A stretch of 64,000 bases of DNA from Gammaproteobacteria bacterium (GTDB lineage: Bacteria; Pseudomonadota; Gammaproteobacteria; Pseudomonadales; Pseudohongiellaceae). Positions 13,423-32,707 of this stretch are shown piece after piece. Each line of letters begins with the position of its first letter. Position 1 is the first letter of the stretch. A program made the position numbers and the translations under genes. The notes under the pieces are model-generated. The model was not told the DNA's origin. It saw only the letters and a list, made by a program, of their open reading frames with translations, and ran no database searches. The stretch is taken from assembly GCA_018698975.1 (NCBI GenBank), contig JABIPQ010000121.1, positions 1 to 64,000 of the forward strand, given 5' to 3'.

Positions 13423-13884
13423 ATGACAGCCCGATCTACTATTTATTCGACTTATTCAAGAAGTTATCCGGGATTATTTTCGATGATTCACCCAACAGTT
13501 TTTTTAAAACTTCTATTAACACTAACAGTGCTATTGACCAGCTTTTCAACTGCAGCTCATCATTCCTTTGCTGCACAGTACGATATCAACAAGCCCATTA
13601 TCCTGGTAGGTAAAGTGACCAAAGTAGAGTGGACTAATCCCCATGCAAGAATTTATATCGATGTACTTGATGAGGCCGGCAACACCCTGAACTGGAATAT
13701 AGAACTTGGCAGCCCTAATTTTTTGAAACGCGCTGGCTGGTCTCGCAACGACCTGAAGATCGCTGATGAAGTTACTATCAACGGATCAATGGCACGCAGC
13801 GGTGCTAATATGGCTAATGCATCCAGCATTATTTTAAAAGGTGGACGCCAGGTGTTTGGTAGAAATGCAGCCGATAATTTTTAA
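13423..13884 (+). CDS. Exported DUF6152 family protein, first copy
   Basis: The 153-residue product has a signal peptide ending STAAHHSF. The mature protein has the DUF6152 pattern: an N-terminal HHSF, GKVTKVEWTNPHARIYIDV, an N-W-N-I-E-L-GSP segment and GDEVTINGSMARSG-type turns. The function is unknown; the small beta-rich fold with conserved His suggests a binding or accessory role. The ATG used has an AGGGG ribosome site seven bases upstream; a second ATG at 13483 would give a more usual signal peptide. It is followed by a WYGHS-motif secreted protein, an arrangement repeated elsewhere in the window. Confidence 0.8.
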   Translation: MTARSTIYSTYSRSYPGLFSMIHPTVFLKLLLTLTVLLTSFSTAAHHSFAAQYDINKPIILVGKVTKVEWTNPHARIYIDVLDEAGNTLNWNIELGSPNFLKRAGWSRNDLKIADEVTINGSMARSGANMANASSIILKGGRQVFGRNAADNF

Positions 13885-13919
13885 TCAGGCAGTTCCATTT
13901 GCTTTCAACTTTAAATTCA

Positions 13920-13943
13920 TTCGGGGTTAAAACCCCTCCTACA
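13920..13943 (-). repeat. REP palindrome between paired genes
   Basis: TTCGGGGTTAAAACCCCTCCTACA is identical to the copy at 12935. It sits between the DUF6152 gene and its partner. Confidence 0.8.
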
Positions 13944-13987
13944 ACTTAATGGCATTTAGCAAGAGTTTATTCCGTAACGGTAATCAA

Positions 13988-14722
13988 ATGAAAAAAGCGC
14001 TATTGATATTCTTTGTGTTCATTTCCAACTTCTCTATGGCCCAGGATGCGGATGCAGTGTCTGCCCCGCGCCTTCCATCCGGTACGCCAGACTTCAACGG
14101 TCTCTGGTCTGGCGGTGGTCCTATTGGGGATATTGCCGGTGGTCTGATGCCCGGTGAAGCCATGGTATTAACGGAAGAATATGCTGGTATTAAGGCCCGA
14201 CGTTTGGCCAATGAAGATCCGGAAGCCAATTGCCTGCCCACGGGTGTACCACGAATAGCACCCTACCCCTGGCGCATAGTGCAGGCGCCTGCCTATGGTC
14301 CGGCAACGCATCTGTACTTTTTATTTGAAGGTAATGTACACAGCTTCCGACAGATTTTTATGGACGGACGCGAACATCCCTCAGCTGAAGAACTTGATCC
14401 AAGCTGGTACGGTCACTCTATCGGCTGGTGGGAAGGCGACACCCTTGTCGTTGATTCAGTAGGTTTTAACGATCTGACCTGGTTTGATTTTCTCGGCAAC
14501 CCGCACTCTACAGAACTTCATACCATTGAGCGCTATACCCGTCTTGATAATGACACTCTGGAAAACATTACCACGATAATCGATCCTCTGGCTTACCGAC
14601 AGCCCTTCACCATCCGCTATGAAGCACGCCTGCAGCCCGCCGACTGGGATTTAATGGAGTATGTATGTAATGAGAATAATCAGGACGTAGAACATATCGA
14701 AGGGCCAGCGCGCCTGTTTTAA
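13988..14722 (+). CDS. Secreted WYGHS-motif protein, DUF6152 partner, first copy
   Basis: This is a 244-residue exported protein from the ATG giving MKKALLIFF and a signal peptide ending MAQ. An ATG 39 bases upstream is in frame but lacks the features of a signal start. Recognisable segments are SGTPDFNGLW at the mature N-terminus, CLPTGVPR (about 84), FMDGREHPS (about 123), WYGHSIGWWEGDTLVVD (about 140) and PHSTELHTIERYTR (about 172). It belongs to a widespread but uncharacterised secreted family; no catalytic site is known to me. It resembles the proteins at 20600, 29841 and the C-terminal half of 31700, always next to DUF6152. Confidence 0.8.
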   Translation: MKKALLIFFVFISNFSMAQDADAVSAPRLPSGTPDFNGLWSGGGPIGDIAGGLMPGEAMVLTEEYAGIKARRLANEDPEANCLPTGVPRIAPYPWRIVQAPAYGPATHLYFLFEGNVHSFRQIFMDGREHPSAEELDPSWYGHSIGWWEGDTLVVDSVGFNDLTWFDFLGNPHSTELHTIERYTRLDNDTLENITTIIDPLAYRQPFTIRYEARLQPADWDLMEYVCNENNQDVEHIEGPARLF

Positions 14723-14751
14723 CGCAGTTAAACTGGAGACGCTTGCCCTTT

Positions 14752-14778
14752 TAAACCTTGTTCTAAATCTTGTTCTAA
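14752..14778. repeat. Tandem repeat at the metY end
   Basis: Three loosely repeated units of the CTTGTTCTAA type abut the metY stop codon. They resemble, in place and sequence, the heptamer arrays after other minus-strand genes, but without a REP. Confidence 0.5.
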
Positions 14779-16046
14779 GTCTTGTCTAAAGCCTGACTAA
14801 CATCTGCAATAATATCGTCGATGTGTTCAATGCCAACTGATATCCTGATCAAATCAGCACTTACCCCGGCAGAAACCAGTTCTTTATCATTCAGCTGGCG
14901 ATGGGTAGTAGAGGCCGGATGACAAGCCAGCGATTTTGCATCTCCAATGTTTACCAGGCGTAAGATCATTTCCAGTGAATCAATAAACCTTGTGCATGCT
15001 TCAATACCACCTGAAACCCCAAAACTTAAAATCCCTGAAGCCTTGGAATTGGTGATGTTTTTGCAATTCGTAAAGTAAGGGCTATCGGGTAATGCCGCAT
15101 AATTCACCCACTTAACTTTTTCATGTTGCTGGAGGTATGCAGCAAGTTTTTCAGCATTTTCACAATGACGCTCCATGCGCAAACCAAGAGTCTCAAGTCC
15201 TTGCAGAATCTGGAAAGCATTCATTGGCGACAAGGCCGCTCCGGTATTTCTCAGTGGTACTACTCTGCAACGCCCTATATAGGCTGCAGGGCCCAGAGCT
15301 TCTGTGTAAACAACACCATGATAAGAAGGATCAGGCTCGCTTAAAACGGGGAAACGATCCTTGTTAGCAACCCAGTCGAATTTCCCTGAATCAACAATCG
15401 CTCCACCAATAGATGTGCCATGACCGCCTATATATTTAGTGAGGGAATGCACAACAATATCAGCCCCAAGTTCAAATGGTCGACATAGATAAGGCGTCGC
15501 AACGGTGTTATCAACAATCAATGGCACACCATGCTTGTGTGCTATTTCCGCCAAACGGGCAATGTCTACGATATTCCCCGCTGGATTACCTATTGATTCG
15601 CAAAAGACGGCTTTGGTATTTTCGTCAATGGCTTTTTCAAAGCCTTCATAATCATCGTGCGAGATCATACGTACCTCAACACCTTGCCTTGGCAAAGAAT
15701 GCGCAAAGAAATTATAGGTACCGCCATACAACTCACTGGTACTGACGATATTATCCCCAACCTCAGTAATGCATTGAATGGAATAAGTAATAGCGGCCAT
15801 TCCTGAAGCAACACATAGCGCGGCAATACCTCCCTCCATTGCCGCAATACGTTTTTCCAACACATCTGTCGTTGGATTCATGATGCGGGTGTAAATATTG
15901 CCAGGCACTTTAAGGTCAAATAAATCAGCACCATGCTGAGTATTATCAAAGGTATAAGAGGTGGTCTGATAAATGGGAACAGCTGCAGCTTTAGTTGTTT
16001 CTTCCGATTTGTAACCTTCATGCAATGCGATTGATTCTAGTTTCAT
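14775..16046 (-). CDS. metY: O-acetylhomoserine sulfhydrylase
   Basis: The 423-residue protein is of the Cys/Met-metabolism PLP family, with the MetY-type insertions (length near 420-430, against about 390 for MetB/MetC). Visible are the N-terminal HEGYKSEETTKAAAVPIYQT, YTRIMNPTTDVLEKRIAA (about 52) and the PLP-binding Lys in VHSLTKYIGGHGTS (about 203). It makes homocysteine from O-acetylhomoserine and sulfide in the cytoplasm. The gene lies about 90 bases after the propeller gene at 16136 on the same strand; the gap shows no MetJ box or SAM riboswitch that I can recognise. Its end is followed by a CTTGTTCTAA-type repeat. Confidence 0.92.
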   Translation of the reverse strand: MKLESIALHEGYKSEETTKAAAVPIYQTTSYTFDNTQHGADLFDLKVPGNIYTRIMNPTTDVLEKRIAAMEGGIAALCVASGMAAITYSIQCITEVGDNIVSTSELYGGTYNFFAHSLPRQGVEVRMISHDDYEGFEKAIDENTKAVFCESIGNPAGNIVDIARLAEIAHKHGVPLIVDNTVATPYLCRPFELGADIVVHSLTKYIGGHGTSIGGAIVDSGKFDWVANKDRFPVLSEPDPSYHGVVYTEALGPAAYIGRCRVVPLRNTGAALSPMNAFQILQGLETLGLRMERHCENAEKLAAYLQQHEKVKWVNYAALPDSPYFTNCKNITNSKASGILSFGVSGGIEACTRFIDSLEMILRLVNIGDAKSLACHPASTTHRQLNDKELVSAGVSADLIRISVGIEHIDDIIADVSQALDKT

Positions 16047-16135
16047 GCTATTCCTCTACTAAGTGATCATATCTATTGAAGGCTTGATCATGTATCCACA
16101 TCAACCCGTCTTGTTATTGCCAAGATAATAAGGAG

Positions 16136-17185
16136 TTAACGAACTACCGAGGTCGTTATATTTCTCTTCGGCGCTGAGCCTACCTTTATTCTTTCCACCT
16201 CTACCAGCCGGTCTATATCTATAACTGACACATCGTCACTGGCACCATTGGCAGCATAGGCATATTTACTATCAGCACTGAAAGTAATCCAGTCTGGATG
16301 ACTGCCCACTTTAACGCCACCCAGTAAAGCCATCTCCGGTAATGAATAAGCGTATACCGTGCCATTCCAGCGACTGCATACCCACAAGGTATTTCCATCC
16401 GGCGCTACACCAATGCCGTGAGCCGGCGCCTGGTTATAGGGCGGAGGGTCTCTATCTTGTTCCGGGATTGACGGCAAAATAACCCTGCCGATTTCCGTGC
16501 GTAAATTAAAATCCACCACAGCAAAACCATGGACGTTGGAGATTTGTACGTACATGTTTTTGGTTGAGCCATCAGGATGGGTGTCGAAGGCTATCGGGCG
16601 AATACCATCCAGTGCATCAGAAGACGTTGGCGGATATAGTTGAAATTCGCGTTCACGGCTTTGCAGGTTAAACACATCAAGATTACCCTCCCCGCCAAAA
16701 GTGCCTGAGACAAGATGTTTTCCATCCGGTGTGACATAGGTGTTATGTACCCGTGAGCCAGTATCAATATGATCAACGTTTTCTCGGGAACGTGTATCAA
16801 TCACATCGATACCACCAGGTTCCTGCATGATGCCTACATAAACAAAACGCCCATCTTTACCAATAGAAATATTATTGGGCCTGCCGCTTAAGGGAATTTC
16901 CGCTTCGATTTTCAGACTGAAAGCATTTACCACATCCAGAGTGAATTTCGCTTCACTGGAAAAATACAGCTCACTGCCATCGGGAGCGCCGGCAGCACCG
17001 TGGTTGACAGGAATGCCTTCAATCGTGCCAATGATTTGTTGAGTAGAAGGATCAATAAGATGAACAACCTCATCACGGGAATTGGTTTGCACAATGACAG
17101 ACCGCAGGGTATTGGCAGATTGCTGAGCACAGGCAGTATTTGCCAATGCGGCCATAATTACCATAAACACCAATTTACAATTCAT
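16136..17185 (-). CDS. Exported YVTN-type beta-propeller protein
   Basis: The 349-residue protein starts at the ATG giving MNCKLVFMVIMAALANTAC, with an AGAGGG ribosome site eight bases upstream. The frame extends 32 codons further upstream, but that stretch is only a translated CTTTCCA repeat. Repeated blades are visible: DEVVHLIDPSTQQIIGTIEG, GGIDVIDTRSRENVDHIDTG, VSVIDIDRLVEVERIKVG. Such YncE/YVTN-like seven-bladed propellers are periplasmic and often accompany dehydrogenases. A Cys at the end of the signal peptide might be lipidated, though the lipobox is poor. It follows the FAD dehydrogenase genes and may be part of that unit. Confidence 0.85.
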   Translation of the reverse strand: MNCKLVFMVIMAALANTACAQQSANTLRSVIVQTNSRDEVVHLIDPSTQQIIGTIEGIPVNHGAAGAPDGSELYFSSEAKFTLDVVNAFSLKIEAEIPLSGRPNNISIGKDGRFVYVGIMQEPGGIDVIDTRSRENVDHIDTGSRVHNTYVTPDGKHLVSGTFGGEGNLDVFNLQSREREFQLYPPTSSDALDGIRPIAFDTHPDGSTKNMYVQISNVHGFAVVDFNLRTEIGRVILPSIPEQDRDPPPYNQAPAHGIGVAPDGNTLWVCSRWNGTVYAYSLPEMALLGGVKVGSHPDWITFSADSKYAYAANGASDDVSVIDIDRLVEVERIKVGSAPKRNITTSVVR

Positions 17186-17193
17186 CTGTGATC

Positions 17194-17310
17194 CCTCTTT
17201 CCTCTTTCCTCTTTCCACTTTCCACTTTCCACTTTCCACTTTCCACTTTATATAGCGGCGGATATCACTGCCCACTTCCACCCTACATTGTAACTTGTAA
17301 CTTGTAACTT
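17194..17310 (-). repeat. CTTTCCA heptamer array, degenerate REP and GTTACAA array
   Basis: From 17194 to 17250 run about seven 7-bp units (CTCTTTC then CACTTTC types). A degenerate GTAGGG-headed palindrome follows (17255-17287), and then a TTGTAAC triplet (about 17288-17310) just past the stop of the cytochrome at 17315. In minus-strand order this is stop, heptamers, REP, second heptamer array. Confidence 0.7.
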
Positions 17311-17314
17311 GTGA

Positions 17315-17638
17315 CTATCCTTCCGTACCAAAATATTTAGCCAGATAACGTGTCACTACAATCTTTTCATCATTATCCAGTTCAGCCCCATGCTCAATCA
17401 TGTTTTCTACCATGGGCAGCCAATGGTTAAAACCCCAGTATTTCTGATAGGCAGGCACTCCCTCAAGAGTATGACATGTGGTACAGGCACGAAGTATCAA
17501 GTTCCGTCCCTCGGCCAAAGGTAATTCTATGCCCGGTGCAAATTTCTCTGACTTATTGTCAGCAGCAGTTGACTCTAAACAGATGAAGCACAGCAGAACC
17601 ACCAGAGCTTTGAAATTCACGCAGTAATATCGTCCCAT
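17315..17638 (-). CDS. Small cytochrome c subunit of FAD dehydrogenase
   Basis: The 107-residue protein has a signal peptide (1-26) and one heme site, CTTCH (about residue 52), followed by a W-x-x-M-V-x-x-M-I segment whose methionines could be axial ligands. It overlaps the end of the GMC flavoprotein by 22 bases, so it is translationally coupled. This is the usual order in membrane-bound gluconate-type dehydrogenases, where a cytochrome subunit accepts electrons from FAD. Here it is a small monoheme protein rather than the triheme subunit of classic gluconate or alcohol FAD dehydrogenases. Confidence 0.85.
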   Translation of the reverse strand: MGRYYCVNFKALVVLLCFICLESTAADNKSEKFAPGIELPLAEGRNLILRACTTCHTLEGVPAYQKYWGFNHWLPMVENMIEHGAELDNDEKIVVTRYLAKYFGTEG

Positions 17639-19338
17639 GAATCAACCAGATGCTGCGCTGTACGCCAGGCCAATGCCTGCAAGGTCTGCGTGGGATTTCT
17701 GGCGCCTGCTGTTGGCATCACCGAACCTCCAATGATACCCAGGTTTTTCGCTTCAAAAGAAAAGCCCCAGGGATCACATACACTGGTCTCGGGATTATTA
17801 CCCATTCGGGTACCGCCGTGAGCATGAGTTGAAAGCCCTGGTCCAACACCACCACCGGTATTCACAATATCCGAGGCGCCGGCGGCGCGAAACCATTCTT
17901 CCATTTTGTTGGCAGCATGGCCTGCTGCCATTGGTTCATTAAGCTTTGGTCCGTGAGTGACTCTGAGCACCGGATCGCCATAAGGATCTCTGACGTTGGG
18001 ATCAAGATCGGCCCAGGTGTGCTCATAGGGAAAGGTATTGGTTTGCATATAAGCTGTCTGGGTACGACCGGCGTTTTCCTTTATAAAGCCTTTCCAGTCT
18101 GAACCCCAGCGCCGCTCCACCTTGCCAAAGGTGCCCATAGCAGCGGCACCAATCGGATGTTTTTCTGTATACACATGCAGACTGGCTCCACCAATAAAAC
18201 CAAGACCGCTATGATCAAAATTATCATCTGCCCAATCATCCACCATAACACCCTGGGCGATAGCGCCGTACCAGATATTGATATCAAATGGGAACAGTGC
18301 CGTGACAAGCGTGCCGCCCTGAATATCCCAATGACCAAAGTAATGCCGACCTACCTGCCCACGATTATTGCCCAGACCATTGGGGTAATACGCCGATGTA
18401 GACAACAACAGAGTACGAATATTTTCATAGGTGTAACAGCCCAGCAAAACCGCGCGGGCTGGCTGAAAATACTCTTCGCCATCACGTATATAAGTGACAC
18501 CTGTCACTTTTCCGGTATTATCGACTTCGATGCGGCGTACATTGGCATTATCTCTAACTTCAAGATTGCCGGTGGCCACCGCCTTCGGAATGGTAGAGAC
18601 ATCGGTGGAATTTTTTGCCCGCACATGACATCCGCCCCTATCGCAGTAGCCGTGATACTGACAACCCGGGCGCCCATCATAAGGCTGTGAATTAATTGCT
18701 GCGGGACCATGGTAAGGATGAAAACCAATCTCCTGACCCGCTGTCTGCATATGATCGAGAAAATCACAGGACCTAAGTGGCGGCATCGGATAGTCACGCT
18801 GGCGCGGACCTTCAAATATATTGCCTTCGGAATTTATCTGTCCTTGTATGTTACCTGCACGCCCGCTGACGCCGACCTCGTATTCGATATGATCATAGAA
18901 AGGTTCCATATCATCGTATGAGACCGGCCAATCTTCCAGGGTGGTGCCTTCGGGAATATATTCAGCACCATAACGCTCAAGGGTGGCACTGCGAACTTTA
19001 AAATCCCAGGGATTCAGGCGCCAGCTCTGCGCATGGTAATGAATGGAAGTGCCTCCTACCGCGTTCATCATTGGGTGGCTTGCCTGCTGTACCGCAGTCT
19101 CGGTGGGCGACCTTCTGACCGTCGGAATTTCTCCAGCGACCTTATTACCCGTTGTCACCAGGGAGCGCACATTGTTATGGATTTCGTCCGCCTTGTAGTC
19201 CCGCCCCGGATTCATCCAGGTACCGGCTTCCAGCCCTACCACATTGAGTCCTGCTCTGGTCAGAGGCAATACAGCAACACCGCCTGCAGCACCGAGGCCT
19301 ACAACAACGACATCAACTTCTTGTAGATTATTCGCCAT
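17617..19338 (-). CDS. GMC-family FAD dehydrogenase, large subunit
   Basis: The 573-residue protein starts at the ATG giving MANNLQEVDVVVV, which has a GGGAG ribosome site eight bases upstream. An earlier ATG 15 bases upstream lacks one. The FAD motif GLGAAGGVAVLPLTRAG is at the N-terminus, followed by GGTSIHYHAQSWRL (about 93) and the C-terminal HGGTRMGNNP and MPTAGARNPTQTLQALAWR, typical of gluconate 2-dehydrogenase alpha-like GMC enzymes. It oxidises a sugar or alcohol in the periplasm, exported with its Tat-signal small subunit, whose gene overlaps its start by 11 bases. The substrate is unknown. Confidence 0.9.
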   Translation of the reverse strand: MANNLQEVDVVVVGLGAAGGVAVLPLTRAGLNVVGLEAGTWMNPGRDYKADEIHNNVRSLVTTGNKVAGEIPTVRRSPTETAVQQASHPMMNAVGGTSIHYHAQSWRLNPWDFKVRSATLERYGAEYIPEGTTLEDWPVSYDDMEPFYDHIEYEVGVSGRAGNIQGQINSEGNIFEGPRQRDYPMPPLRSCDFLDHMQTAGQEIGFHPYHGPAAINSQPYDGRPGCQYHGYCDRGGCHVRAKNSTDVSTIPKAVATGNLEVRDNANVRRIEVDNTGKVTGVTYIRDGEEYFQPARAVLLGCYTYENIRTLLLSTSAYYPNGLGNNRGQVGRHYFGHWDIQGGTLVTALFPFDINIWYGAIAQGVMVDDWADDNFDHSGLGFIGGASLHVYTEKHPIGAAAMGTFGKVERRWGSDWKGFIKENAGRTQTAYMQTNTFPYEHTWADLDPNVRDPYGDPVLRVTHGPKLNEPMAAGHAANKMEEWFRAAGASDIVNTGGGVGPGLSTHAHGGTRMGNNPETSVCDPWGFSFEAKNLGIIGGSVMPTAGARNPTQTLQALAWRTAQHLVDSWDDITA

Positions 19339-19990
19339 CGTAGTCACTCCCATAAGCAGAAGTATGCAGTGGTGGCAACCTTCCCCCCATTTTTTGCATT
19401 TCGGCTGAACTACTCATCACAGCACCTGGATAGCCAATTAAATCCCAACCTGCGTAATTCTGGTTACCCCCGTAATAAGGATCACTGAACATCCCCTCAA
19501 GGGTAAGCCGATGCAAACGATTAAAGATTTGTGCAGAATTATCAAAGCCGGCAATTTTTCCATCTTCCATATCCCTGAGTAGTGCATCCTTGTTATTGTC
19601 AGACAGCAACTGGAACTCAAGATCATAGCGACTGCGGGCGGCACGTGTCAGCGCAAAAAGTCCTTCACTGAGTAAATCCAGTTCATTATTGTTCCAGTCT
19701 GCAAGTGAGTTATCAATGTAATAAGGCACTCCAGCGGCAACCGCGCCAGGGCCATTGTTATCGGCTGGAATAATTCGATCGGCAAAGGCTTCAAGAATCA
19801 GCCAGGCTTCCCGGGACAGTATTCTTTGTGGGGCCGGCATGGGTGTTGTGCAGGATGTATTGGCAAGTGGAATCAGGACCACAGAAGAAGCAGTCACCGC
19901 AGAGCCAAGGACTTTTCGTCGACTAACTGAATGCATACTCTCTGGAGTAGTATCGGCCGTTATTATCTTGTTCTCACTTTCATCATCCAT
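19328..19990 (-). CDS. Gluconate 2-dehydrogenase subunit 3 family protein (Tat)
   Basis: The 220-residue protein has a twin-arginine signal (SRRKVLGSAVTASSVVLIP, about 24-42) after an unusually long n-region. The mature part has the small-subunit pattern LSREAWLILEAFADRIIPAD, then a spaced Asp/Gly region and YAGWDLIGYPGA near the end. It chaperones the flavoprotein through the Tat system and stays in the complex. It is the first gene of a unit: small subunit, flavoprotein, cytochrome, then the propeller protein. It diverges from the DUF6152 gene at 20165 with about 170 bp between. Confidence 0.87.
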   Translation of the reverse strand: MDDESENKIITADTTPESMHSVSRRKVLGSAVTASSVVLIPLANTSCTTPMPAPQRILSREAWLILEAFADRIIPADNNGPGAVAAGVPYYIDNSLADWNNNELDLLSEGLFALTRAARSRYDLEFQLLSDNNKDALLRDMEDGKIAGFDNSAQIFNRLHRLTLEGMFSDPYYGGNQNYAGWDLIGYPGAVMSSSAEMQKMGGRLPPLHTSAYGSDYDGE

Positions 19991-20164: not shown

Positions 20165-20593
20165 GTGGAAAAATCAACGACATCTGCAACGCGCCACAAG
20201 GTCGGAACTGCATTAATCTGCTTGCTTACCCTGCTGACCTGCTCATCAATAGTTTATGCACATCACGGCACAGCAGTGTCCTATGAGCAGGAAGAATTCA
20301 TAACGGTTACTGGTACAGTCACAGAATTCAGATGGCGCAACCCACATTCAGCGCTGTTTCTGGATATCAAGAACGACGCAGGGGAAACGGTAAACTATGC
20401 CATAGAGCTGGCCAGCCCGGTACTCATGTCCCGGTCCAGCGGCTGGACCCGAAACACCTTCAGACCCGGTGATAGCGTACAATTCAGGGTCCACCCCTCC
20501 AGAACCGGCGCGCCGGTCGGCGAATGCCTGTTCAACTGCGAAGTATTGATTAATGGTGAAGCACCCGTATCAGCGCTGGATAATCAGGAGTAA
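20165..20593 (+). CDS. Exported DUF6152 family protein, second copy
   Basis: The 142-residue product has a GTG start and a signal peptide ending SIVYAHHGT. It shares GTVTEFRWRNPHSALFLDI and the NYAIELASP segment with the copies at 13423 and 29426, and has a Cys pair near the C-terminus (GECLFNCEV) not seen in the first copy. A GGAG lies about 12 bases before the GTG, a long spacing. It is followed six bases later by a WYGYS-motif partner. It diverges from the FAD dehydrogenase genes, so a shared control region is likely. Confidence 0.8.
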   Translation: MEKSTTSATRHKVGTALICLLTLLTCSSIVYAHHGTAVSYEQEEFITVTGTVTEFRWRNPHSALFLDIKNDAGETVNYAIELASPVLMSRSSGWTRNTFRPGDSVQFRVHPSRTGAPVGECLFNCEVLINGEAPVSALDNQE

Positions 20594-20599
20594 ACCGAT

Positions 20600-21355
20600 A
20601 TGAAAAAACTCTCTGCATTCATACCGACTATGCTGTCCCTGGTGATCCTTTTTATCCCGACGACTTCCCTGGCACAAAGTGATTTAAACGGCGTCTGGTT
20701 ACGCGGCTCTCGCTCTGATGCTTATCCAGTGTCGCAATGGAGCCCGGATATACTGCCCTTCACTACTCTCGGACAAACCCAATTTGACAGCAATGTGCCG
20801 GGCAAGGGACCACGCCAGAGTATGCCGGCCTTTGGTAATGATCCACTGGGAGATGCCAATCCCCCGGGTTTGTATCGGACGCTGGTCTATGGAAGACCCT
20901 GGGAATTTATTCAGCTGCCCAACAAAATTGTGCAGATGTTCGAATGGGGAAAACACTGGCGCACCATCTGGACTGATGGACGCGCTGTACCCGATGTCAT
21001 TGTTGCCGGACCGTACTGGTACGGTTATTCCGTAGGGGAATGGCAAGGCGATACTCTGGTAGTTAAAACGGTGGGCCTGGATGGACGCGCATGGCTGGAT
21101 GAATGGGGTACACCCTTTTCCGATTTCGCCTTAATCGAGGAACGCTGGACGCGTGTCGGAAATTCTCTGGAAATGAAACTGACAGTGAACGATCCGGATC
21201 TCTATCGTGAATCCTGGACCAGTGACACCAAGCAATTCAATTATCAAGACCCTGATACCCTGAACGGTGAATTGATGGAACAGATTTTTGCACCTATAGA
21301 TGAAATGGAATTTAACAGAACTATTCGGGATCCTGCTGCTGCCGGGCCTCAGTAA
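20600..21355 (+). CDS. Secreted WYGYS-motif protein, DUF6152 partner, second copy
   Basis: The 251-residue product has a signal peptide ending SLAQ. It shares SDLNGVW, WTDGRAVPD (about 124) and YWYGYSVGEWQGDTLVVKT (about 138) with its paralogues, and an ERWTRVGNSLEM segment. The central His of WYGHS is Tyr here. It lies six bases after the DUF6152 stop. The mature N-terminal region, with several Pro/Gly-rich turns, differs from the first copy. The function is unknown. Confidence 0.8.
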   Translation: MKKLSAFIPTMLSLVILFIPTTSLAQSDLNGVWLRGSRSDAYPVSQWSPDILPFTTLGQTQFDSNVPGKGPRQSMPAFGNDPLGDANPPGLYRTLVYGRPWEFIQLPNKIVQMFEWGKHWRTIWTDGRAVPDVIVAGPYWYGYSVGEWQGDTLVVKTVGLDGRAWLDEWGTPFSDFALIEERWTRVGNSLEMKLTVNDPDLYRESWTSDTKQFNYQDPDTLNGELMEQIFAPIDEMEFNRTIRDPAAAGPQ

Positions 21356-24997: not shown

Positions 24998-25127
24998 TGG
25001 AATAACCCATTTTCAATTTTTATATTGCCTGCATATAGCACGATGAAAAATGCAGACTAAATTAGCACTTTCGCTGGATGCCAGGTGAAAAGATATTTTT
25101 AAAACGCTTGCTTATTAATCACACCGT

Positions 25128-25583: not shown

Positions 25584-26387
25584 ATGCATACTTCGTTTGA
25601 GCAGTTGACTGAACTTTACTGGCCAGACTCATTGCGGGGAAAAATAGTAGAAAATTATTTCAAATTATCCAACGGTTTTTTGTTTCGCCACACCGAAGCA
25701 GTTCTGGGTAATGCCGAACCCATTCTTGAACAGGCGCTGGCAATGGGCGCACCTGATACCCGGCTTATTGGTACGCCATTAGCCTCTGAATTTATTAACC
25801 CTGCATATAAACCCCACCGCGGCACACTGGAGAGCTGTCTATTTGCCGGGCGCCTGGCCAAGGAAAAAAACATCGAGGCTCTGCTGCAAAGTGTTGCCGA
25901 CTTTCCCGAGATCAAATTTAGTATCGCTGGTGACGGCCCCTTGCGTGAACAAATAATCAAGGCAAGCAGTCAGCATGCAAACCTGGATTACCTGGGCTGG
26001 CTGAGTCGCGAGGAACTGCGCAAAACGCTCGACCAGCACGATGCCCTTTTACTGCCCTCACACTTTGAGACATTTGGTACTGTGGCACTTGAAGCCATGG
26101 CGCGAGAAAAACTGGTTTTCGTTTCAAAAGGCTGCGGAATCACTCACTGGAACAGGTTGCTGCCCGGACTGATCATCATTGATGAATCCGGTCTTTCGCG
26201 CGCTATAAAACATGTATTACGCAAAACTCCGGATGAGAGAAAAGAGATCGCCAGTACGGCCAACAGTCTTGCCATCGCCTGGAATAATGATGTGTTGAAT
26301 CGCTGGAATTTGATCATCAGCGAAACTATCAGGGATTATACTGAACAACCCGACACTGAAAATTCCCAATCTGAAAAGAATCAATAG
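25584..26387 (+). CDS. Glycosyltransferase, group 1, short or 5'-truncated
   Basis: The 267-residue protein has the C-terminal half of a GT-B family 4 transferase: FAGRLAKEKNIEALL (about 89), IAGDGPLREQI, and the donor-binding LLPSHFETFGTVALEAMA (about 156). The N-terminal acceptor domain, usually about 150 residues, is represented only by its last part. The frame has a stop at 25560-25562, just before the ATG, and the two other frames upstream show nothing resembling a GT N-domain. There is no good ribosome site. It is therefore probably a truncated gene or remnant. It is followed ten bases later by a DUF2334 protein. Confidence 0.65.
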   Translation: MHTSFEQLTELYWPDSLRGKIVENYFKLSNGFLFRHTEAVLGNAEPILEQALAMGAPDTRLIGTPLASEFINPAYKPHRGTLESCLFAGRLAKEKNIEALLQSVADFPEIKFSIAGDGPLREQIIKASSQHANLDYLGWLSREELRKTLDQHDALLLPSHFETFGTVALEAMAREKLVFVSKGCGITHWNRLLPGLIIIDESGLSRAIKHVLRKTPDERKEIASTANSLAIAWNNDVLNRWNLIISETIRDYTEQPDTENSQSEKNQ

Positions 26388-26397
26388 CAACCAAACA

Positions 26398-27087
26398 ATG
26401 CACGCACTGATTTCCATTCATGATGTCATGCCCGCTACTCTGGGCAGAGTTCAATATTTTGCTGAGCAACTCGCGCATGTTGATATAGAAAATGTTCCCC
26501 TTCTGGTTGTGCCGGGACTAGCCTGGTCAGACCAGCAAATTGATATCCTGAAGGAACTGGAAAAACAGGGTTTTATCTTATCCGGACATGGCTGGCATCA
26601 CACTGCTAAAAATATTCACGGCTGGTATCACCGTTTACACTCAACACTGATATCACGCAATGTCGCTGAACACCTGTCTCTTGGTGAAAACGAAATCCAG
26701 CAACTTATGGACGAGTGTTACAACTGGTTTTTAGATCGCGATTTAAGCCCACCAGATCTTTATGTTCCACCTGCCTGGGCGATGGGTAAAATCAGCGCGC
26801 ACAATCTGGAAGCGTCCCCGTTTCGCTATTTTGAAAACACTGCAGGTTTTTATGACAGCACAAGCCGCCAACAAAGAAATCTGCCCTTGTCAGGATTTGA
26901 AGCAGATACTTTATTGCGGGCAGGGACCTTAAAGTTCTGGAATGGAATGAATAAACTGATCGCCCACGAGAGAAGGCCGGTGAGAATATCAATTCATCCT
27001 TTTGATCATGAATTGCTGCTCAGTAAATCCCTGTTTGCAACCCTCAAATCAGTTACTGCTACAGTGAATTACCGCGCATTATTTTGA
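26398..27087 (+). CDS. DUF2334 polysaccharide-deacetylase-like protein
   Basis: The 229-residue protein has the NodB-like pattern: ISIHDVMPATL at the start with Asp/His residues for metal, SGHGWHHTAK (about 61) as the H-x-x-x-H-type motif, a PPAWAMG segment and RISIHPFDHE near the end. DUF2334 proteins are predicted to deacetylate cell-surface sugars. Here it is not exported (no signal peptide), like many of this family. It follows the glycosyltransferase-like gene closely, and the two probably formed a surface-glycan unit. Confidence 0.8.
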   Translation: MHALISIHDVMPATLGRVQYFAEQLAHVDIENVPLLVVPGLAWSDQQIDILKELEKQGFILSGHGWHHTAKNIHGWYHRLHSTLISRNVAEHLSLGENEIQQLMDECYNWFLDRDLSPPDLYVPPAWAMGKISAHNLEASPFRYFENTAGFYDSTSRQQRNLPLSGFEADTLLRAGTLKFWNGMNKLIAHERRPVRISIHPFDHELLLSKSLFATLKSVTATVNYRALF

Positions 27088-27126
27088 AGGGATCAACAAT
27101 GCTTTTTTGCGATGTACCTTTACTTT

Positions 27127-27156
27127 GCCGGACAGCGCTTCGCTCTTCCGGCCTAC
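27127..27156 (-). repeat. GTAGG-headed REP palindrome
   Basis: GCCGGACAGCG and CGCT-CTTCCGGC pair around a short loop, followed by CTAC, giving a GTAGGCCGG head on the minus strand. It lies between the convergent DUF2334 and PQQ genes. A weaker related sequence occurs at about 27177-27208. Confidence 0.7.
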
Positions 27157-27234
27157 GCAAAATTATGGATCAGTTGCAGGCCTCAAGAGCAAAGCGATGT
27201 CCGGCTTCGATAATTTTTAATCTTTATTCGTCTT

Positions 27235-29055
27235 CTAATCGTCTTCAATCGTAAAGGCTAATAAAACGTTGCCTGGGCGTCCAACAAACCCTGCACTTCC
27301 TGACAACATATACATAACGCCATCAACGATAACTGGTCCTGGTCCATCGAATGAAGCGCCATTGGCTTCAATACCATTTACCGTTTCAAAGGAACGGTTG
27401 GCATCAAAGGTCCAGATCACCTCACCGGTATCAGCATCATAAGCACGCATGCCGCCATCGGCTGAACCGGAAAATACTGCACCAGGAATGGCTGTCACCG
27501 CAGCGGACTGGGTAGCCGAGCAACCCGGCCCTTCAGCACATAACAGTTCCTGCGGTGGTGTGTACCATTGACGTTCACCGCTTTCCAGATCGATACCATG
27601 AATGCCGCCACCCTGAGTAAAGATATAACCGCCAACTGCCACATAGGCCAAACCATCGCCTACAGAGGCGCCCCAGACCCCGCCAACGGGACTGCCAGGG
27701 CCAGCACGATATTGCCAGACCAATGCTCCCTGCTCATTGGGATCAAGCGCATAGGCAAAGCCGGATTTTTGCGGAATAACCAATAATTCCCGTCCAGTTG
27801 CTGTTGTTGTCAGGAGCGGCGATGCCGAGAAATCAAAATCGGGACCTATGTCTTGCGGGCAATTGGGATTGTCTTCAGAATTACATCCCCCTATCCACGC
27901 ATCTCCGGGCGTTAACTGAGTCACCCAGGCAATTTCCCCGTTGCTGATCCTGATTGCCACCACCGCATCGGAGGTTTCCGGTGCCGGTTCAGCATAGGCA
28001 TTGCCTGTTGCTACATAAATCAGGCCCCGGTCATCATCAATGGTGGGAGCACTCCAGATCCCCACGCCAGCAGGACCATAAAGAATCACCCCGCTACTAC
28101 TACTGCCTCGCGGGCGGGGTTCGGGCACCATGTAGGACTTCCAGTTCAGGTCGCCGCTTTGTGCATCAAAAGCGCTGACACTGCCGCGGAAAGTACAGCA
28201 GGCATAATCCGGATTGGAGGATGATGTCTCTTCCCCAACCCCGGACATTGGTACATAAAGCACCCCCTTATGCAGGGTAACGGCGCCAGTGCCACGAACA
28301 TTGGGATGATCATCAACTTTGCGAACCCACAGTACTTCACCGTTTTGTGCATTCACTGCATAAGCATTAGCGCCTCTATCAACAAAATAGACGGCATATC
28401 CATCTGATCCATCTTCAAATTGATAAGGGCCTACTGAGATCGCGCTGCGAATACCGCTGCGCGGCAAGTAGGTCCAATATGTACAAGCGCTTTCAGCATC
28501 CAGTGAGTAAAGTGCACCGGCGCCATTGCCGACAAATATCCTGCCGTCTATCACTGCTGGCTGCGCCCTGGCCTGGCCTTCACCGGGTAAACCATAGGCC
28601 CATTTCAGGCGTAGATTGGGCAGATCCTCCCGGGTAATGCCGCCGTTTTCTGAAAATCGCGTATTGCGTACATCCGGCCCCCAGCCATTCCATGAAGGTT
28701 TCAGGGCCGGGTTTTGAATGGGGGGATTTGATGCACACATGTTCTCGGTAATTTCCAGATTCAGATCTGCCACTTCACTGCCCGTCAAAAAAGCAGCCAC
28801 AGTACGCATATCACTATCCGACATTCCGGTAGCCTGAATCTGCATCAAGCCGCCATTCATGGCAGCGTAAACCGAATTAGGGGTAAAACCAGCCATGTTG
28901 GCACGTGCTGGTGCATGGGCATTGGTTTCCGGGTCAGGATTGTCATGGCAGCTTGCGCAACGTGTGTTGTATAGCGCCTCGCCATCCTGGGCAAATACTG
29001 GCAAAGCCAGAAGTAAACTGAAAAAACCCAGTCCTTTTAGAAAACGTGCAAACAT
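27235..29055 (-). CDS. Cytochrome-PQQ dehydrogenase, polyvinyl-alcohol-dehydrogenase-like
   Basis: The 606-residue exported protein has a signal peptide (1-22), a short cytochrome c domain with CASCH (about residue 34), and a PQQ beta-propeller. The segment EETSSSNPDYACCTFRGS (about 270) with adjacent cysteines is typical of PVA-dehydrogenase-like quinoproteins, as are VATGNAYAEP (about 345) and TPGDAWIGGC (about 374), which hold the Asn and Asp of the active site. It oxidises secondary alcohols or diols on the outer face of the membrane, with internal transfer to heme. The natural substrate need not be PVA. It stands alone on the minus strand, divergent from a DUF6152 pair. Confidence 0.88.
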   Translation of the reverse strand: MFARFLKGLGFFSLLLALPVFAQDGEALYNTRCASCHDNPDPETNAHAPARANMAGFTPNSVYAAMNGGLMQIQATGMSDSDMRTVAAFLTGSEVADLNLEITENMCASNPPIQNPALKPSWNGWGPDVRNTRFSENGGITREDLPNLRLKWAYGLPGEGQARAQPAVIDGRIFVGNGAGALYSLDAESACTYWTYLPRSGIRSAISVGPYQFEDGSDGYAVYFVDRGANAYAVNAQNGEVLWVRKVDDHPNVRGTGAVTLHKGVLYVPMSGVGEETSSSNPDYACCTFRGSVSAFDAQSGDLNWKSYMVPEPRPRGSSSSGVILYGPAGVGIWSAPTIDDDRGLIYVATGNAYAEPAPETSDAVVAIRISNGEIAWVTQLTPGDAWIGGCNSEDNPNCPQDIGPDFDFSASPLLTTTATGRELLVIPQKSGFAYALDPNEQGALVWQYRAGPGSPVGGVWGASVGDGLAYVAVGGYIFTQGGGIHGIDLESGERQWYTPPQELLCAEGPGCSATQSAAVTAIPGAVFSGSADGGMRAYDADTGEVIWTFDANRSFETVNGIEANGASFDGPGPVIVDGVMYMLSGSAGFVGRPGNVLLAFTIEDD

Positions 29056-29425
29056 ACTTCTTCCCCTTGATTCACTTATATACTTTTATATACTTTTTAT
29101 TATGGCTATTCAGCGCAAACTGGCAACAAGGCATTGTTTACCTTGTCCCCTGCCTTTTGTTCTCTGAGAAAAACCATGTGTGCTGTCATTGATAATAAAA
29201 TGATTCCATTGACAAGAATAGAGAAGAATTTTAAATACCCACCGAGCCCGTCTTCTCCAGGTAATGAATCAGGCTACTTTAATTCAATATTATGATTAAG
29301 CAGTTATGGCACAGCTGCTTCCTTTGGCGCTACACTCTGACTAAACAATATTCGCATTGCATGTTTGATAAGCCATAATGCAAGTAATGCAAGTAATGCA
29401 TTTTTGTCTCACAGGGGGAAACATC
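29056..29425. other. 370-bp divergent control region
   Basis: This region lies between the PVA-dehydrogenase-like gene and the third DUF6152 gene. It is AT-rich, with a 9-bp TAATGCAAG direct repeat (2.5 units, about 29377-29400) just before the DUF6152 ribosome site. The repeat places in-frame ATG codons upstream of the true start. No known operator was recognised. Confidence 0.4.
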
Positions 29426-29818
29426 ATGAAAAAAATATTCACCACCAAACTAATTATTGCCCTGGTCATGTGTCTACCGGCTATTTCCATCCAGGCACAT
29501 CATTCACTTGTCGGGGAATTTGATACCGCCGTTCAATTTGAACTACAGGGAACAATCACTGACCTTGAGTGGTTCAATCCCCATATCTGGTTTTATATGG
29601 ATGTGACCAACGATGCTGGTGAAGTAGAAAACTGGCAATGTGAAATGGGTTCGCCGAATCAACTTATTCGCCTTGGATGGGCAAAGGAAGATCTTCCTGT
29701 CGGTACGGTAATTATTGCTCGCGCCAACCCGGCCCGAGATGGCACTAAAACCTGCAGTACGCGCAGGATTACTCTGGAAGATGGTACTCCGGTTTTCAGC
29801 CGTACCGGGAATCGCTAG
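29426..29818 (+). CDS. Exported DUF6152 family protein, third copy
   Basis: The 130-residue product starts at the ATG giving MKKIFTTKLIIALVMC, with an AGGGGG ribosome site seven bases upstream; in-frame ATGs in the upstream 9-bp repeat are not used in my reading. The signal peptide ends SIQAHHSL. GTITDLEWFNPHIWFYMDV and NWQCEMGSPNQLIRLGW match the family, and two Cys occur (C about 78 and C about 112). It is followed 22 bases later by a WYGHS partner. Confidence 0.83.
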   Translation: MKKIFTTKLIIALVMCLPAISIQAHHSLVGEFDTAVQFELQGTITDLEWFNPHIWFYMDVTNDAGEVENWQCEMGSPNQLIRLGWAKEDLPVGTVIIARANPARDGTKTCSTRRITLEDGTPVFSRTGNR

Positions 29819-29840
29819 AAGCAAACTCAAGGAGAAGAAG

Positions 29841-30617
29841 ATGAAATTTTTACCAAACTTTACACGTACTTTTAACTCACTTTTCACACTTCTCACTTTG
29901 CTGTTTTGCCAGACATTGCTTGCCCAGGATGACATTCCTCGCCTACTCTCAGGCAAGCCCGACCTTAATGGTGTATGGGCAAGACCCTATGTTCCCAACA
30001 TGCTTTCTGCGGGTAATGGCAGAAATCAGACAGGCCCTGGCGAAGAGCCCTTTACTGCAGCCGGGCGCAGAAATTTTGATAACTACAACCCCACAGATGG
30101 AGACTATACCGGGTCATGTCTCCCATTTGGTCTGTTAAGAGCAATGAACTCACCGGACCCTATTCAGTTTATGCAGACAGAAACACATTTCGCTTATCTT
30201 TACGAACAAAACACCTGGTTCAAGGTTGTCAATCTGGACGGACAGGATCATGGCGGCAGATTACCTCCAGCCTGGTATGGACATTCTATTGCTAAATGGG
30301 AAGGCGACACGCTAATCATCACTACCAATCGATTCAACGGTAAGACACGACTGGATACTATTGGTCATCCGCATAGCGATCAGATGACAGTAATAGAACG
30401 CTTTGCACTCACCGATGCAGACACTATGGATTATGAAGTTACTATTGATGACCCTGTTTATTACAGCAAACCCTGGACCAATAAACGGATATTTATAAGA
30501 CAGTCTGATTTTGATCTGATCGAATATTCCTGCATGGAAAACAACAAGAGCTTGTTTGAAGGAAGAGTCGTGCCACCAAATTACGAAAACTGGCATACCT
30601 ATGACACGGAAGATTAA
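29841..30617 (+). CDS. Secreted WYGHS-motif protein, DUF6152 partner, third copy
   Basis: The 258-residue product starts at the ATG with an AAGGAGAAGAAG ribosome site directly upstream. A longer frame reaching back to 29715 only reads through the DUF6152 gene. The signal peptide ends LLAQ; then come GKPDLNGVW, CLPFGLLRAM (about 91), NLDGQDHGG, AWYGHSIAKWEGDTLIITT (about 142) and PHSDQMTVIERFAL. It has the full motif set of the first copy. Unknown function, presumably acting with the DUF6152 protein in the periplasm. Confidence 0.83.
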   Translation: MKFLPNFTRTFNSLFTLLTLLFCQTLLAQDDIPRLLSGKPDLNGVWARPYVPNMLSAGNGRNQTGPGEEPFTAAGRRNFDNYNPTDGDYTGSCLPFGLLRAMNSPDPIQFMQTETHFAYLYEQNTWFKVVNLDGQDHGGRLPPAWYGHSIAKWEGDTLIITTNRFNGKTRLDTIGHPHSDQMTVIERFALTDADTMDYEVTIDDPVYYSKPWTNKRIFIRQSDFDLIEYSCMENNKSLFEGRVVPPNYENWHTYDTED

Positions 30618-30672
30618 ATAGTTTTGTAAGAACCCGTGCTTTTCCGGGCTACCTGCCGTCGCTTATTTATTG

Positions 30673-30726
30673 TAGGGCGGAAAAGCGCAGTATCATCCGC
30701 CCAGGGAAGGCGCAGCCTTCCCTGAA
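30673..30726. repeat. GTAGGGCGG-headed REP-like palindromes
   Basis: GTAGGGCGGA is paired with TCCGCCC around a loop, followed by a second small hairpin (GGGAAGGC-GCA-GCCTTCCC). They lie between convergent genes and could end transcription from both sides. Confidence 0.6.
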
Positions 30727-30767
30727 TCTATAAATGCTCACTGCACCATCACAATTATTTCGACAGC

Positions 30768-31628
30768 TTACTGCTTATCCAGAAAATCAAAAATTTCTGC
30801 AGCAAAGGTCAGATAAGCCGTTAAATGTTCACCGTTCGGCACATCATAAAAAGCCGCATTTATCCCATGCCCTGCCAGTTCACGAGTTACCCTTAATGAA
30901 GCATCCCGAGTATTAGCCGTGTCATTGGTGCCATGAACCATCAACACCGTCACCTTGCCTACCAGGTTTTCAAAAGGGTAATTATCGGTAACGATAGGGC
31001 CCGCACTGGCAATAATTGCATTAACTGCATCGGGATATTTTGCCGCAAAATGAAAAGCCGAGGAACCTGACGGGTTTTGCCCATGCACAAAGATTCGTGA
31101 AACATCCGCATTGTATTCCTGAGCGACAAGATGAAGCACATTGATCACATCCTGTTCTGACCTTGCATTTTCCTCTTGCGTCCAGCCAGCTGCCGGCACC
31201 GAAGGACCTGCTGGTCGGTCTACCGGATAGGGACTGCCATAATACGGCTGGGCATAACCACGATAGCCTAATGGCGATATCACGATATAGCCCCTTGCCC
31301 GGGCCTGAACTACCAGGTCATTATTATTGCGATGGTTATTATTAATACTGGGGCCTGCGCGCAGCGTAATCAGAATTGGTGGCGACTGCTCCGGACTCCA
31401 GTTTTCCGGAACATACAAGCGGTAAGGAATGGACTCCCCTGTTCCTGGAAAATCATAGGAGCGGTATTGCTCACCTGTATGACGATACAAGGGTGCGTCC
31501 GGGTTTGGCGCCAGCGATGCATCAACTTCCATGCCAGGAATTGAAAATGTCTGGGCAGAAACCGCTAGGGATAAAAATGCCAACGGCAAAAAATAGAGGG
31601 AACTAACAATGTGTTTTATTATTCTCAT
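30768..31628 (-). CDS. Exported alpha/beta-hydrolase (esterase-like)
   Basis: The 286-residue protein has a signal peptide (ending SAQ) and an alpha/beta-hydrolase fold similar to PHB-depolymerase/feruloyl-esterase-type enzymes: an IPYRLYVPENW start, a nucleophile region FVHGQNPSGSSAFHFA (about 180), an Asp region HGTNDTANTRDASL (about 231) and a His region GEHLTAYL (about 262). The nucleophile motif reads N-P-S-G-S rather than the usual G-x-S-x-G. It probably cleaves an ester in the periplasm. An AAGGG ribosome site lies upstream. It follows the fused DUF6152 gene by 71 bases. Confidence 0.75.
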   Translation of the reverse strand: MRIIKHIVSSLYFLPLAFLSLAVSAQTFSIPGMEVDASLAPNPDAPLYRHTGEQYRSYDFPGTGESIPYRLYVPENWSPEQSPPILITLRAGPSINNNHRNNNDLVVQARARGYIVISPLGYRGYAQPYYGSPYPVDRPAGPSVPAAGWTQEENARSEQDVINVLHLVAQEYNADVSRIFVHGQNPSGSSAFHFAAKYPDAVNAIIASAGPIVTDNYPFENLVGKVTVLMVHGTNDTANTRDASLRVTRELAGHGINAAFYDVPNGEHLTAYLTFAAEIFDFLDKQ

Positions 31629-31699
31629 AACTTTTTCCCTTAAAATTTATTTTTGTAATAAGACTGTAATTTTTCGTATCCAGAAAAAGTGAAAACCGC

Positions 31700-32707
31700 C
31701 TAGTCATCCAGGAATCGTCTGGCAGCCTCCAGATTACAACTTTCATTGGAATGCTCCATACCTGGACGATAAACCCAGGTCCCTGTCCATTCGACAGGTT
31801 CTGCAAGATACACAGGATCACTCAGTGTGCCGGAATAAATCATTTGTTTGCCATCATCACTGATTTGAAATCTTTCAATCATGTGTTTTTGAACACTCCC
31901 CGGGAGACTTGTGGAAAGTCCCATCGCGTGTTCACTGAAATTAGCGCTATCAACCACGAGCGACTCTTCTTCCCAATGCCCGATTGAATGCCCCTGCAAT
32001 GATGTCTGCGAGGAATCTGGATGTGCTCTGCCATCCAGAAAAATAGTGCGCACTGAATCAAGCCAATCAATTGTCATGACTACCCGGTCTTCATACACTT
32101 CAATAGTATTCGCTACCGGATAAAACATTAGCCCTGGTATACCGATAGGGATGCAGTCCTTATGCGTTGTATCCAGAGGATTGGTATTTGCCCTGGCATT
32201 GCTGCCAGCCTCAGTTAAAGACCAGCTTCCTGAACCTCCCAAAAATCCAAAAAAAGATGTTCTTGGTGAAAACCAGGTGCCCTCTATGCTCTGGGCCACA
32301 TCATCGCCATAATCATTAATGCTGCGCGATGAAATATTCAGAGGAAAGTAAGTACCATCCTGATGATAGAGTTCCCTGCCCAGCAATAAACCATCGGGAT
32401 TTCTTCGCCCCGGATTACCAATAATCGTGACTGTATCACCTGATGAAACTGAATCCCGGGTAAAACCCAGTGGTGAAATAACTGAACCCGCACCAGCTTC
32501 CACGTTTACTTCCCGGACTGAGCCATCACTCTCTGTAACTGACAGTGTCATGTAAACATGGGGATTACGAAAACTATAATCGACAATCGTTCCTGTCACT
32601 TCTACCGTTTCCTGCGTATTAAACGCCGCAGGGCTATGATGTGCTGTTAGTGGCAATGGATATATCAGGGCGGGTAGGATGGGAAGTATAAGATGGAGTT
32701 TCTTCAT
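31700..32707 (-). CDS. Fusion of DUF6152 and WYGHS-type domains
   Basis: The 335-residue exported protein starts at ATG; a TTG directly before it is also in frame. Residues 20-120 are DUF6152-like (LTAHHSPAAF, GTIVDYSFRNPHVYMTL), and residues 165-330 match the partner family (CIPIGIPG, IFLDGRAHP, QGHSIGHWEEESLVVDS, a MIERFQ segment, and DPVYLAEP). The WYG of the motif is replaced by LQG, and acidic residues replace GDT. The one-gene form shows that the two proteins of the separate pairs act together. It is probably co-transcribed with the downstream esterase. Confidence 0.78.
   Translation of the reverse strand: MKKLHLILPILPALIYPLPLTAHHSPAAFNTQETVEVTGTIVDYSFRNPHVYMTLSVTESDGSVREVNVEAGAGSVISPLGFTRDSVSSGDTVTIIGNPGRRNPDGLLLGRELYHQDGTYFPLNISSRSINDYGDDVAQSIEGTWFSPRTSFFGFLGGSGSWSLTEAGSNARANTNPLDTTHKDCIPIGIPGLMFYPVANTIEVYEDRVVMTIDWLDSVRTIFLDGRAHPDSSQTSLQGHSIGHWEEESLVVDSANFSEHAMGLSTSLPGSVQKHMIERFQISDDGKQMIYSGTLSDPVYLAEPVEWTGTWVYRPGMEHSNESCNLEAARRFLDD

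Follow-up and report, generated by a model that had tools for sequence, protein, structure and literature searches.

Two published accounts describe how an N-terminal histidine binds metal through its amino group together with its ring, and name CopC, lytic polysaccharide monooxygenases (LPMOs), DUF4198, DUF6702 and the anglerases among such secreted proteins (PMC10952591, PMC12537917). The DNA studied here, which we call the window, is a 64,000-nucleotide stretch of contig JABIPQ010000121.1 from a gammaproteobacterium of the Pseudohongiellaceae (assembly GCA_018698975.1). It encodes four copies of the DUF6152 domain (D; Pfam PF19649, gathering cut-off 27 bits), each accompanied by a partner domain (P). 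Judging from sequence and structure prediction, we tentatively propose, with confidence somewhat short of even, that D and P constitute an exported two-part module in which D would carry a metal site built around an N-terminal histidine, P would be a ligand barrel and the separate copies would be devoted to separate ligands. The genes of the window are as follows.

13423..13884, forward strand: D1, DUF6152 gene; PF19649 score 109.4 bits; predicted mature start HHSFAAQYD at 13558, with the two histidines placed after the signal peptide.
13949..14722, forward strand: P1, partner gene, predicted ligand-barrel protein; P-profile domain E-value 2.6e-76; alternative downstream ATG at 13988.
20165..20593, forward strand: D2, DUF6152 gene with a GTG start; PF19649 score 84.7 bits; predicted mature start HHGTAVSYE at 20261.
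20600..21355, forward strand: P2, partner gene, 6 bases downstream of D2; P-profile domain E-value 6.3e-58.
29426..29818, forward strand: D3, DUF6152 gene; PF19649 score 94.4 bits; predicted mature start HHSLVGEFD at 29498.
29841..30617, forward strand: P3, partner gene, 22 bases downstream of D3; P-profile domain E-value 7.7e-79; AlphaFold2 model with matches to barrels of the intracellular lipid-binding protein (iLBP) type.
31700..32710, reverse strand: D4-P4, fused chain; PF19649 score 60.6 bits; P-domain E-value 4.0e-61; AlphaFold2 model with fold matches for two domains.

All four DUF6152 domains exceed the Pfam cut-off. The gaps from D to P are 64, 6 and 22 bases for D1-P1, D2-P2 and D3-P3, the first widening to 103 if P1 begins at its downstream ATG, and P1, P2 and P3 all contain the DxNGxW and WYGHS/WYGYS...GDTL motifs. 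In the fused chain, whose predicted mature N-terminus is HHSPAAFN at 32641, D spans approximately residues 1–105 and P residues 117–293 of the mature protein; P is retained there with a degraded motif (LQGHSIGHWEEESLVV). Coordinates and gaps agree with a first-pass annotation of this DNA, which had placed a partner 6–105 bases behind each separate DUF6152 gene and had assigned both domains to one chain at 31700–32707. The 103-base gap comes close to the annotated upper value of 105. The annotation's count of four versions within 20 kb is confirmed for the window, and the genome total is far larger, these four being part of 73.

The source genome (2.79 Mb in 151 contigs) contains 73 D domains, every one above the PF19649 cut-off, and the same search found no D domain in 14 control genomes. 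Our D and P profiles were trained on the source genome; PF19649, an independent model, returns the same 73 domains. We find P in 86 open reading frames (ORFs) across 51 fetched stretches and the window (a genome-wide P-profile search gives 92 rows, a few being split hits). Twenty-four of the 86 are D-P fusions with D always first, so that the fusion singled out in the first annotation recurs. Among the 49 solo D genes, 44 have a P gene on the same strand within 400 bp, and one has P only on the opposite strand. A rough uniform model predicts P near about 2.5% of D genes, and chance adjacency is ruled out by the observed pairing. Contigs C128 and C83 carry P genes without D. By a simple home-made rule, used rather than SignalP, signal-peptide-like N-termini occur on 72 of the 73 D proteins and 55 of the 62 solo P proteins, and both D and P look to be exported.

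The most constant feature of D is a set of three histidines. In all 73 D proteins of the source genome, a His-His dipeptide follows directly after the predicted signal peptide, and the histidine of an internal NPH motif is likewise invariant. The residue preceding the dipeptide is Ala in 63, Ser in 5, Gly in 3 and Cys and Pro in 1 each, and His-His is seen at this place in none of the 282 other genes with signal-peptide-like N-termini in the source-genome loci. Across four sets of D proteins (n = 197), all three histidines are present in 195, all are absent in two and a partial set occurs in none. Both histidine-less proteins are fused D-P chains (L154:3381-4550 and L164:3234-4319) from a Bryobacterales cassette described below, and in each case the next gene encodes an intact solo D. 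The joint loss suggests that the three histidines form one site. At the level of sequence, D thus displays two features of a histidine brace, a first-residue histidine after predicted cleavage and a further conserved histidine, and it is probably a metal-binding N-terminal-histidine protein, with copper the likeliest metal.

Structure prediction assigns a fold to each half of the module. The AlphaFold2 model of the mature D4-P4 chain has a predicted local distance difference test score (pLDDT) of 89.2 and a predicted template-modeling score (pTM) of 0.76. Its D portion resembles oligonucleotide/oligosaccharide-binding (OB) folds (PriB, 4apv; Z 10.2, root-mean-square deviation (rmsd) 2.4, 81 aligned residues), and its P portion resembles a fatty-acid-binding protein (FABP) (1icn; Z 10.0, rmsd 3.5, 118 aligned residues). 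For P3 in its presumed mature form (pLDDT 84.1, pTM 0.81), all 50 matches listed are iLBPs, which bind retinoids, fatty acids or bile acids, or NanoLuc (Z 9.3–10.7, rmsd 2.6–4.1). The two models agree in predicting P to be a ten-strand barrel with a helical lid, of the iLBP/FABP type. Foldseek run on the fused model ranks lysyl-tRNA synthetases first, presumably through the OB domain.

The four D proteins give no CopC or LPMO profile match up to an E-value of 1 in a Pfam scan, and the structural matches listed for D are OB folds, with the beta-sandwich folds of CopC and LPMOs not among the rows listed. The three solo P proteins have no Pfam match up to an E-value of 1, and P1 has none in NCBIfam up to the same limit. 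NCBIfam matches are at chance level, with E-values of 0.11 for D2 and 0.094 for P2 and scores far short of the cut-offs, and a 50-row P profile matches no PDB sequence up to an E-value of 1. Among PDB sequences, D has one weak adhesin match, with a whole-chain E-value of 1.2e-4 and a best single-repeat E-value of 25. Conserved positions in P include a likely cysteine pair (C89 in 82 of 87 sequences, C227 in 72 of 87) and the polar residues R124, S145, E182 and D200; the GxW near its N-terminus presumably resembles the lipocalin signature.

These properties of P also raise the possibility that it is an enzyme acting on its bound ligand alone, as NanoLuc does, with D in a structural or chaperone role and its histidines put to some other use. 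NanoLuc is among the best fold matches, the four conserved polar residues could belong to an active P, two fused chains have a D without histidines, and 28 of 80 loci chosen for P have no D as far as the examined stretches show, some of these ending at contig ends. Such a division of roles is hard to square with the near-absolute conservation of the histidines (195 of 197). Moreover, D occurs without P beside a DUF6644-type gene, as discussed below, and must therefore have a role of its own. We consider P acting alone to be unlikely.

D and P diverge together. Across 44 solo pairs, D and P distances correlate with a Mantel r of 0.69 (p 0.0005, the floor of 2,000 shuffles), as compared to −0.13 for a mispaired control, and the 24 fusions also give 0.69. 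Median identity among the copies is 35% for D and 30% for P, and the best match lies in another genome, not in a paralogue, for 39 of the 86 P sequences and 30 of the 73 D sequences (only 80 foreign loci being compared). Among the matches listed, D and P of eight modules match the same foreign locus. For example, D and P of L021 match L130, a record titled Sulfopaludibacter, with 68% and 63% identity, respectively, and those of L057 both point to an Acidobacteria locus (L165); the D and P of L048 have their best matches in two different foreign loci. Shared coordinates suggest that some of the foreign loci come from the source genome's own genus. In addition, a cassette comprising a small secreted protein that we call K, a D-P fusion, D and P is common to L018 of the source genome, Candidatus Rariloculus (L198; 53–74% identity), a gammaproteobacterial assembly (L173) and Bryobacterales (L154 and L164). 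The cross-genome best matches and common cassettes therefore indicate that many copies belong to long-separated lineages and are not recent duplicates. The suggestion in the first annotation that the copies are substrate-specific fits both the low median identities and the closest relatives in other genomes. Conversely, the secreted pair might have been amplified recently, selfishly or neutrally, with no functional difference between copies. The very high D copy number that two of eight sampled genera of the family show, with about 20 copies in a third, might point that way, but the idea is contradicted by the depth of this divergence, by the many best matches in other genomes and by key positions that stay conserved. 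We regard it as highly improbable.

K is the third small secreted protein of these loci (~105–130 amino acids), and its mature part begins near EGHPLxGSWxG; examples are L018:1420-1812, L020:5670-6068, L059:3727-4164, L028:3883-4266 and L198:3769-4170, among others. Sixteen of 18 K matches have a D or P gene no more than 600 bp away, in a search confined to loci chosen for D or P, and the one K protein tested has no Pfam match. P itself occurs in several further architectures. One chain (L036:8259-9830) carries two P domains, and another (L057:6361-8142) has P after a long N-terminal region that by eye resembles a glyoxalase-type domain, with a relative of 64% identity in L165. Long P variants (ORFs of 439–494 amino acids in L025, L029, L031, L053, L055 and L015) share an extra N-terminal region (DLFTSDDFYADRDLWMDPRYFRCN...), and the D proteins adjoining them in L015, L025 and L053 keep the third histidine without the preceding NP.

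D has a second genomic partner. In all 20 P-less loci with a low-scoring D, a small membrane protein adjoins D on the same strand and is the sole gene family besides D found in all 20. We call it DUF6644-type because, in an alignment of 27 such proteins, 24 match DUF6644 (E-value of 1 or less, several below the cut-off) and 14 match DUF2214. At loci with a strong D match, tandem pairs of DUF6644-type genes lie within ~3.5 kb of D in 12 of 26, and the other 14 have none in the examined stretch. Against the CopD profile (PF05425; cut-off 32.1 bits), one DUF6644 protein, L089:9508-9990, reaches 36.1 bits. Haem binding by DUF6644 was considered and dropped as unsupported; the alignment has one invariant histidine per chain, which is not by itself a bis-histidine arrangement. 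The source genome has two DUF6644 matches, one above the cut-off, on contigs C140 and C62, neither of which is among those with D.

The company of a CopD-like protein suggests an alternative function in metal acquisition, in which P would pick up metal-organic complexes, D would accept the metal from them and DUF6644 would carry it inwards, a counterpart of the CopC-CopD route made from different folds. The N-terminal and internal histidines of D, the membrane gene adjoining D at all 20 low-scoring P-less loci and the CopD match above its cut-off would all suit this route, and one report links N-terminal-histidine proteins with transport (PMC12537917). Gene numbers argue against it, however. 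The source genome sets 73 D domains against its two DUF6644 matches, on contigs without a listed D, and the 17 to at least 150 D domains per genome in 19 assemblies would be odd for metal supply. Moreover, the scanned neighbors of D are varied and often degradative enzymes. We think metal acquisition rather unlikely as the main role of the module.

A wider survey shows P nested within the distribution of D. In an even draw of 398 genomes across the phylum, for which only the best candidates were scored per genome (up to 12 for D, and up to nine and seven) at an E-value of 0.001 or less, D occurs in 42 genomes, mostly as a single copy; more than one copy is found in six of the 41 besides the source genome. 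DUF6644 occurs in 29 genomes (21 above the cut-off), all with D, and P occurs in 12, all with both D and DUF6644. Hypergeometric p values for this D/DUF6644/P nesting are 2.6e-34, 4e-13 and 1.9e-15, uncorrected for kinship. Thirteen of the 42 D genomes have no DUF6644 match in this search; loci from six of them were examined, and five (G134, G204, G416, G501 and G510) have a DUF6644-type gene beside D, the sixth (G128, locus L090) having none. In a set of 21 D genomes examined, all have a DUF6644 match, 19 of them above the cut-off. Because P genomes nest within D and DUF6644 genomes, we infer that D and DUF6644 form a wider-spread core to which P was added later, where D multiplied.

Copy number also varies widely, and some soil and marine bacteria carry the pair tens of times over. 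In a sample of the family, D occurs in 118 of 119 genomes at 1 to at least 38 copies each. Nineteen assemblies reached through P loci, and thus not a random sample, have 17 to at least 150 D domains each (53 to at least 150 in 14, 17–50 in the other five); by the records' own titles they include Acidobacteria, Bryobacterales, Gammaproteobacteria and Candidatus Rariloculus. At loci of other genomes, ORFs took the place of gene calls, since gene calling overlooked part of the D genes in high-GC DNA. P is present in 25 of 26 loci chosen for a strong D match, and D lies within 1.5 kb of P in 48 of the 80 P-chosen loci (on the same strand in 47) and farther away in four. The D-P pair thus also occurs outside the window. 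Plasmids of Croceibacterium, Novosphingobium, Sphingobium and Sinorhizobium also carry D with P (six records examined of nine with a D match). A metagenome record titled 'Bordetella parapertussis isolate HRS-HS12-bin-180' (L139) contains a P gene of 52% identity with no D in the stretch; its organism name is probably a mislabel.

The surroundings of the window copies had led the first annotation to another interpretation, namely that D and P are accessory subunits of neighboring dehydrogenases that use pyrroloquinoline quinone (PQQ), flavin adenine dinucleotide (FAD) or heme. The neighbors it recorded are present. They comprise two PQQ/cytochrome c proteins, a glucose-methanol-choline (GMC) oxidoreductase with a homolog of gluconate-2-dehydrogenase subunit 3, and a putative esterase; three of the four copies adjoin PQQ, FAD or heme genes and the fourth adjoins the esterase. 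Genome-wide, the association is not clearly enriched. Within 5 kb of the 73 D domains there are nine PQQ genes (expected at most 6.1, one-sided p 0.15), three GMC genes (at most 1.0, one-sided p 0.08) and 12 cytochrome c genes (at most 8.3, p 0.12), the expectations being upper bounds from a uniform model that ignores contig ends. Three, three and four of these, respectively, lie on the window's own contig. In addition, 45 of 69 co-directional runs contain D and P genes alone, and 18 of the 45 are single genes. We therefore reject a general tie of D to PQQ, GMC or cytochrome genes and hold a role as dehydrogenase subunits to be very unlikely. Fourteen of 37 co-directional neighbors were scanned, 13 with a match, and proved to be varied enzymes, many of them degradative; the types found are amidase, dienelactone hydrolase (twice), FAD enzymes, amidohydrolase, TonB receptor, cytochrome c, enoyl-CoA hydratase and others. 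By eye, a run at 40112-45094 of the window resembles a cytochrome c oxidase operon; its contig carries five D domains.

Several observations weigh against the two-part module that we favor. First, the pairing is incomplete: four of the 49 solo D genes in the source genome have no P nearby, 12 of the 62 solo P genes lie more than 400 bp from any solo D, P is found in none of the 20 loci chosen for a weak D match and the 28 P-chosen loci without D also count here. L090, the exception among strong-D loci, has D with neither P nor a DUF6644-type gene in the examined stretch. Second, if D and P were simply duplicated as one unit, they would diverge together even with no contact between them. Third, the evidence for the metal site has its own limits. 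Signal cleavage is predicted only, the two histidine-less chains share a cassette context and may reflect one event, and the mean pLDDT of residues 1–10 in the fused-chain model is 73, and the three histidines are only presumed to lie close together. Fourth, the Z-scores of about 10 for P are just moderately above the background of the tool, and Foldseek on P alone agrees with a barrel without any match at an E-value below 0.001. Finally, CopD matches occur in just two of the 27 DUF6644-type proteins (E-value of 1 or less), one of them above the cut-off.

Nevertheless, the two-part module brings these observations into one working model. Signal peptidase would cut D directly before the invariant His-His and, because the cut falls there, would leave His1 with a free amino group available for metal. 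His1, probably His2, and the NPH histidine would then jointly hold a single transition metal, for which copper is the likeliest candidate; the site would resemble a histidine brace mounted on an OB fold. P, as a ten-strand barrel of the fatty-acid/retinoid type, would hold a hydrophobic small molecule and, whether fused or adjacent, would present this ligand to the metal of D, which would most likely oxidize or otherwise activate it. Tens of diverged copies would serve the different ligands of a catabolic generalist. The seemingly CopD-related small membrane protein DUF6644 would be the other, probably older partner of D and may supply D with its metal or relay electrons. A more specific version sees in the D-P modules a new class of secreted mono-copper oxygenases or peroxygenases, each specific for its own hydrophobic small-molecule substrate, with the barrel as an interchangeable part and with tens of copies per genome, at least 150 in one assembly. 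This version fits the copy number and divergence, and we regard it as doubtful.

If the module works in this way, it would be an extensive exported protein system, so far undescribed and plentiful in certain Acidobacteriota and Pseudomonadota, in which DUF6152 and DUF6644, both Pfam families without known function, and the unnamed P family join in one metal-and-ligand machine. The model makes a concrete prediction: in mature D, residues 1 and 2 together with an internal histidine should carry the metal site. Among 5.39 million open-access papers, DUF6152 and DUF6644 are named in none (most subscription papers lie outside this search), and there is none on Rariloculus; on lipid-binding proteins in prokaryotes, one search returned none and another 96.

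More broadly, D-P shares features with several described systems. As in CopC-CopD, an exported protein with an N-terminal histidine and a further histidine is paired with a small membrane protein, which in one case exceeds the CopD cut-off. By contrast, D has a predicted OB fold, no CopC match in the four window proteins, tens of copies and the added barrel P. Like the histidine-brace enzymes, exemplified by LPMOs in one review (PMC10952591), D looks secreted, with a histidine first after the signal peptide and a second elsewhere; D-P differs from them in its predicted fold, its His-His start and its separate barrel of the small-molecule type. The first residue also serves as a metal chelator in DUF4198, DUF6702 and the anglerases, and the N-terminal histidine of DUF6152, present in 195 of 197 proteins, compares with shares of 79% in DUF4198 and 65% in DUF6702 in the report concerned, whose text does not name DUF6152 (PMC12537917). 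P, in turn, is predicted to share with the iLBPs (FABP, cellular retinol-binding protein (CRBP) and cellular retinoic-acid-binding protein (CRABP)) and NanoLuc a barrel with helices between strands one and two, whereas it looks exported, is bacterial, has a likely conserved cysteine pair and shows no detected sequence similarity to them. In genomic logic alone, the way in which one genome holds numerous divergent versions of two adjacent genes recalls the SusC-SusD pairs of glycan uptake. We rate the novelty as lying in the combination of D with P and in the copy number, and as smaller if D is one more N-terminal-histidine metal carrier. Our reading is that D-P works like CopC-CopD, or like a histidine-brace protein with a ligand carrier, yet we class it as neither CopC nor LPMO because no profile of either family matches the four D proteins and, as far as the listed matches go, the predicted fold is a different one.

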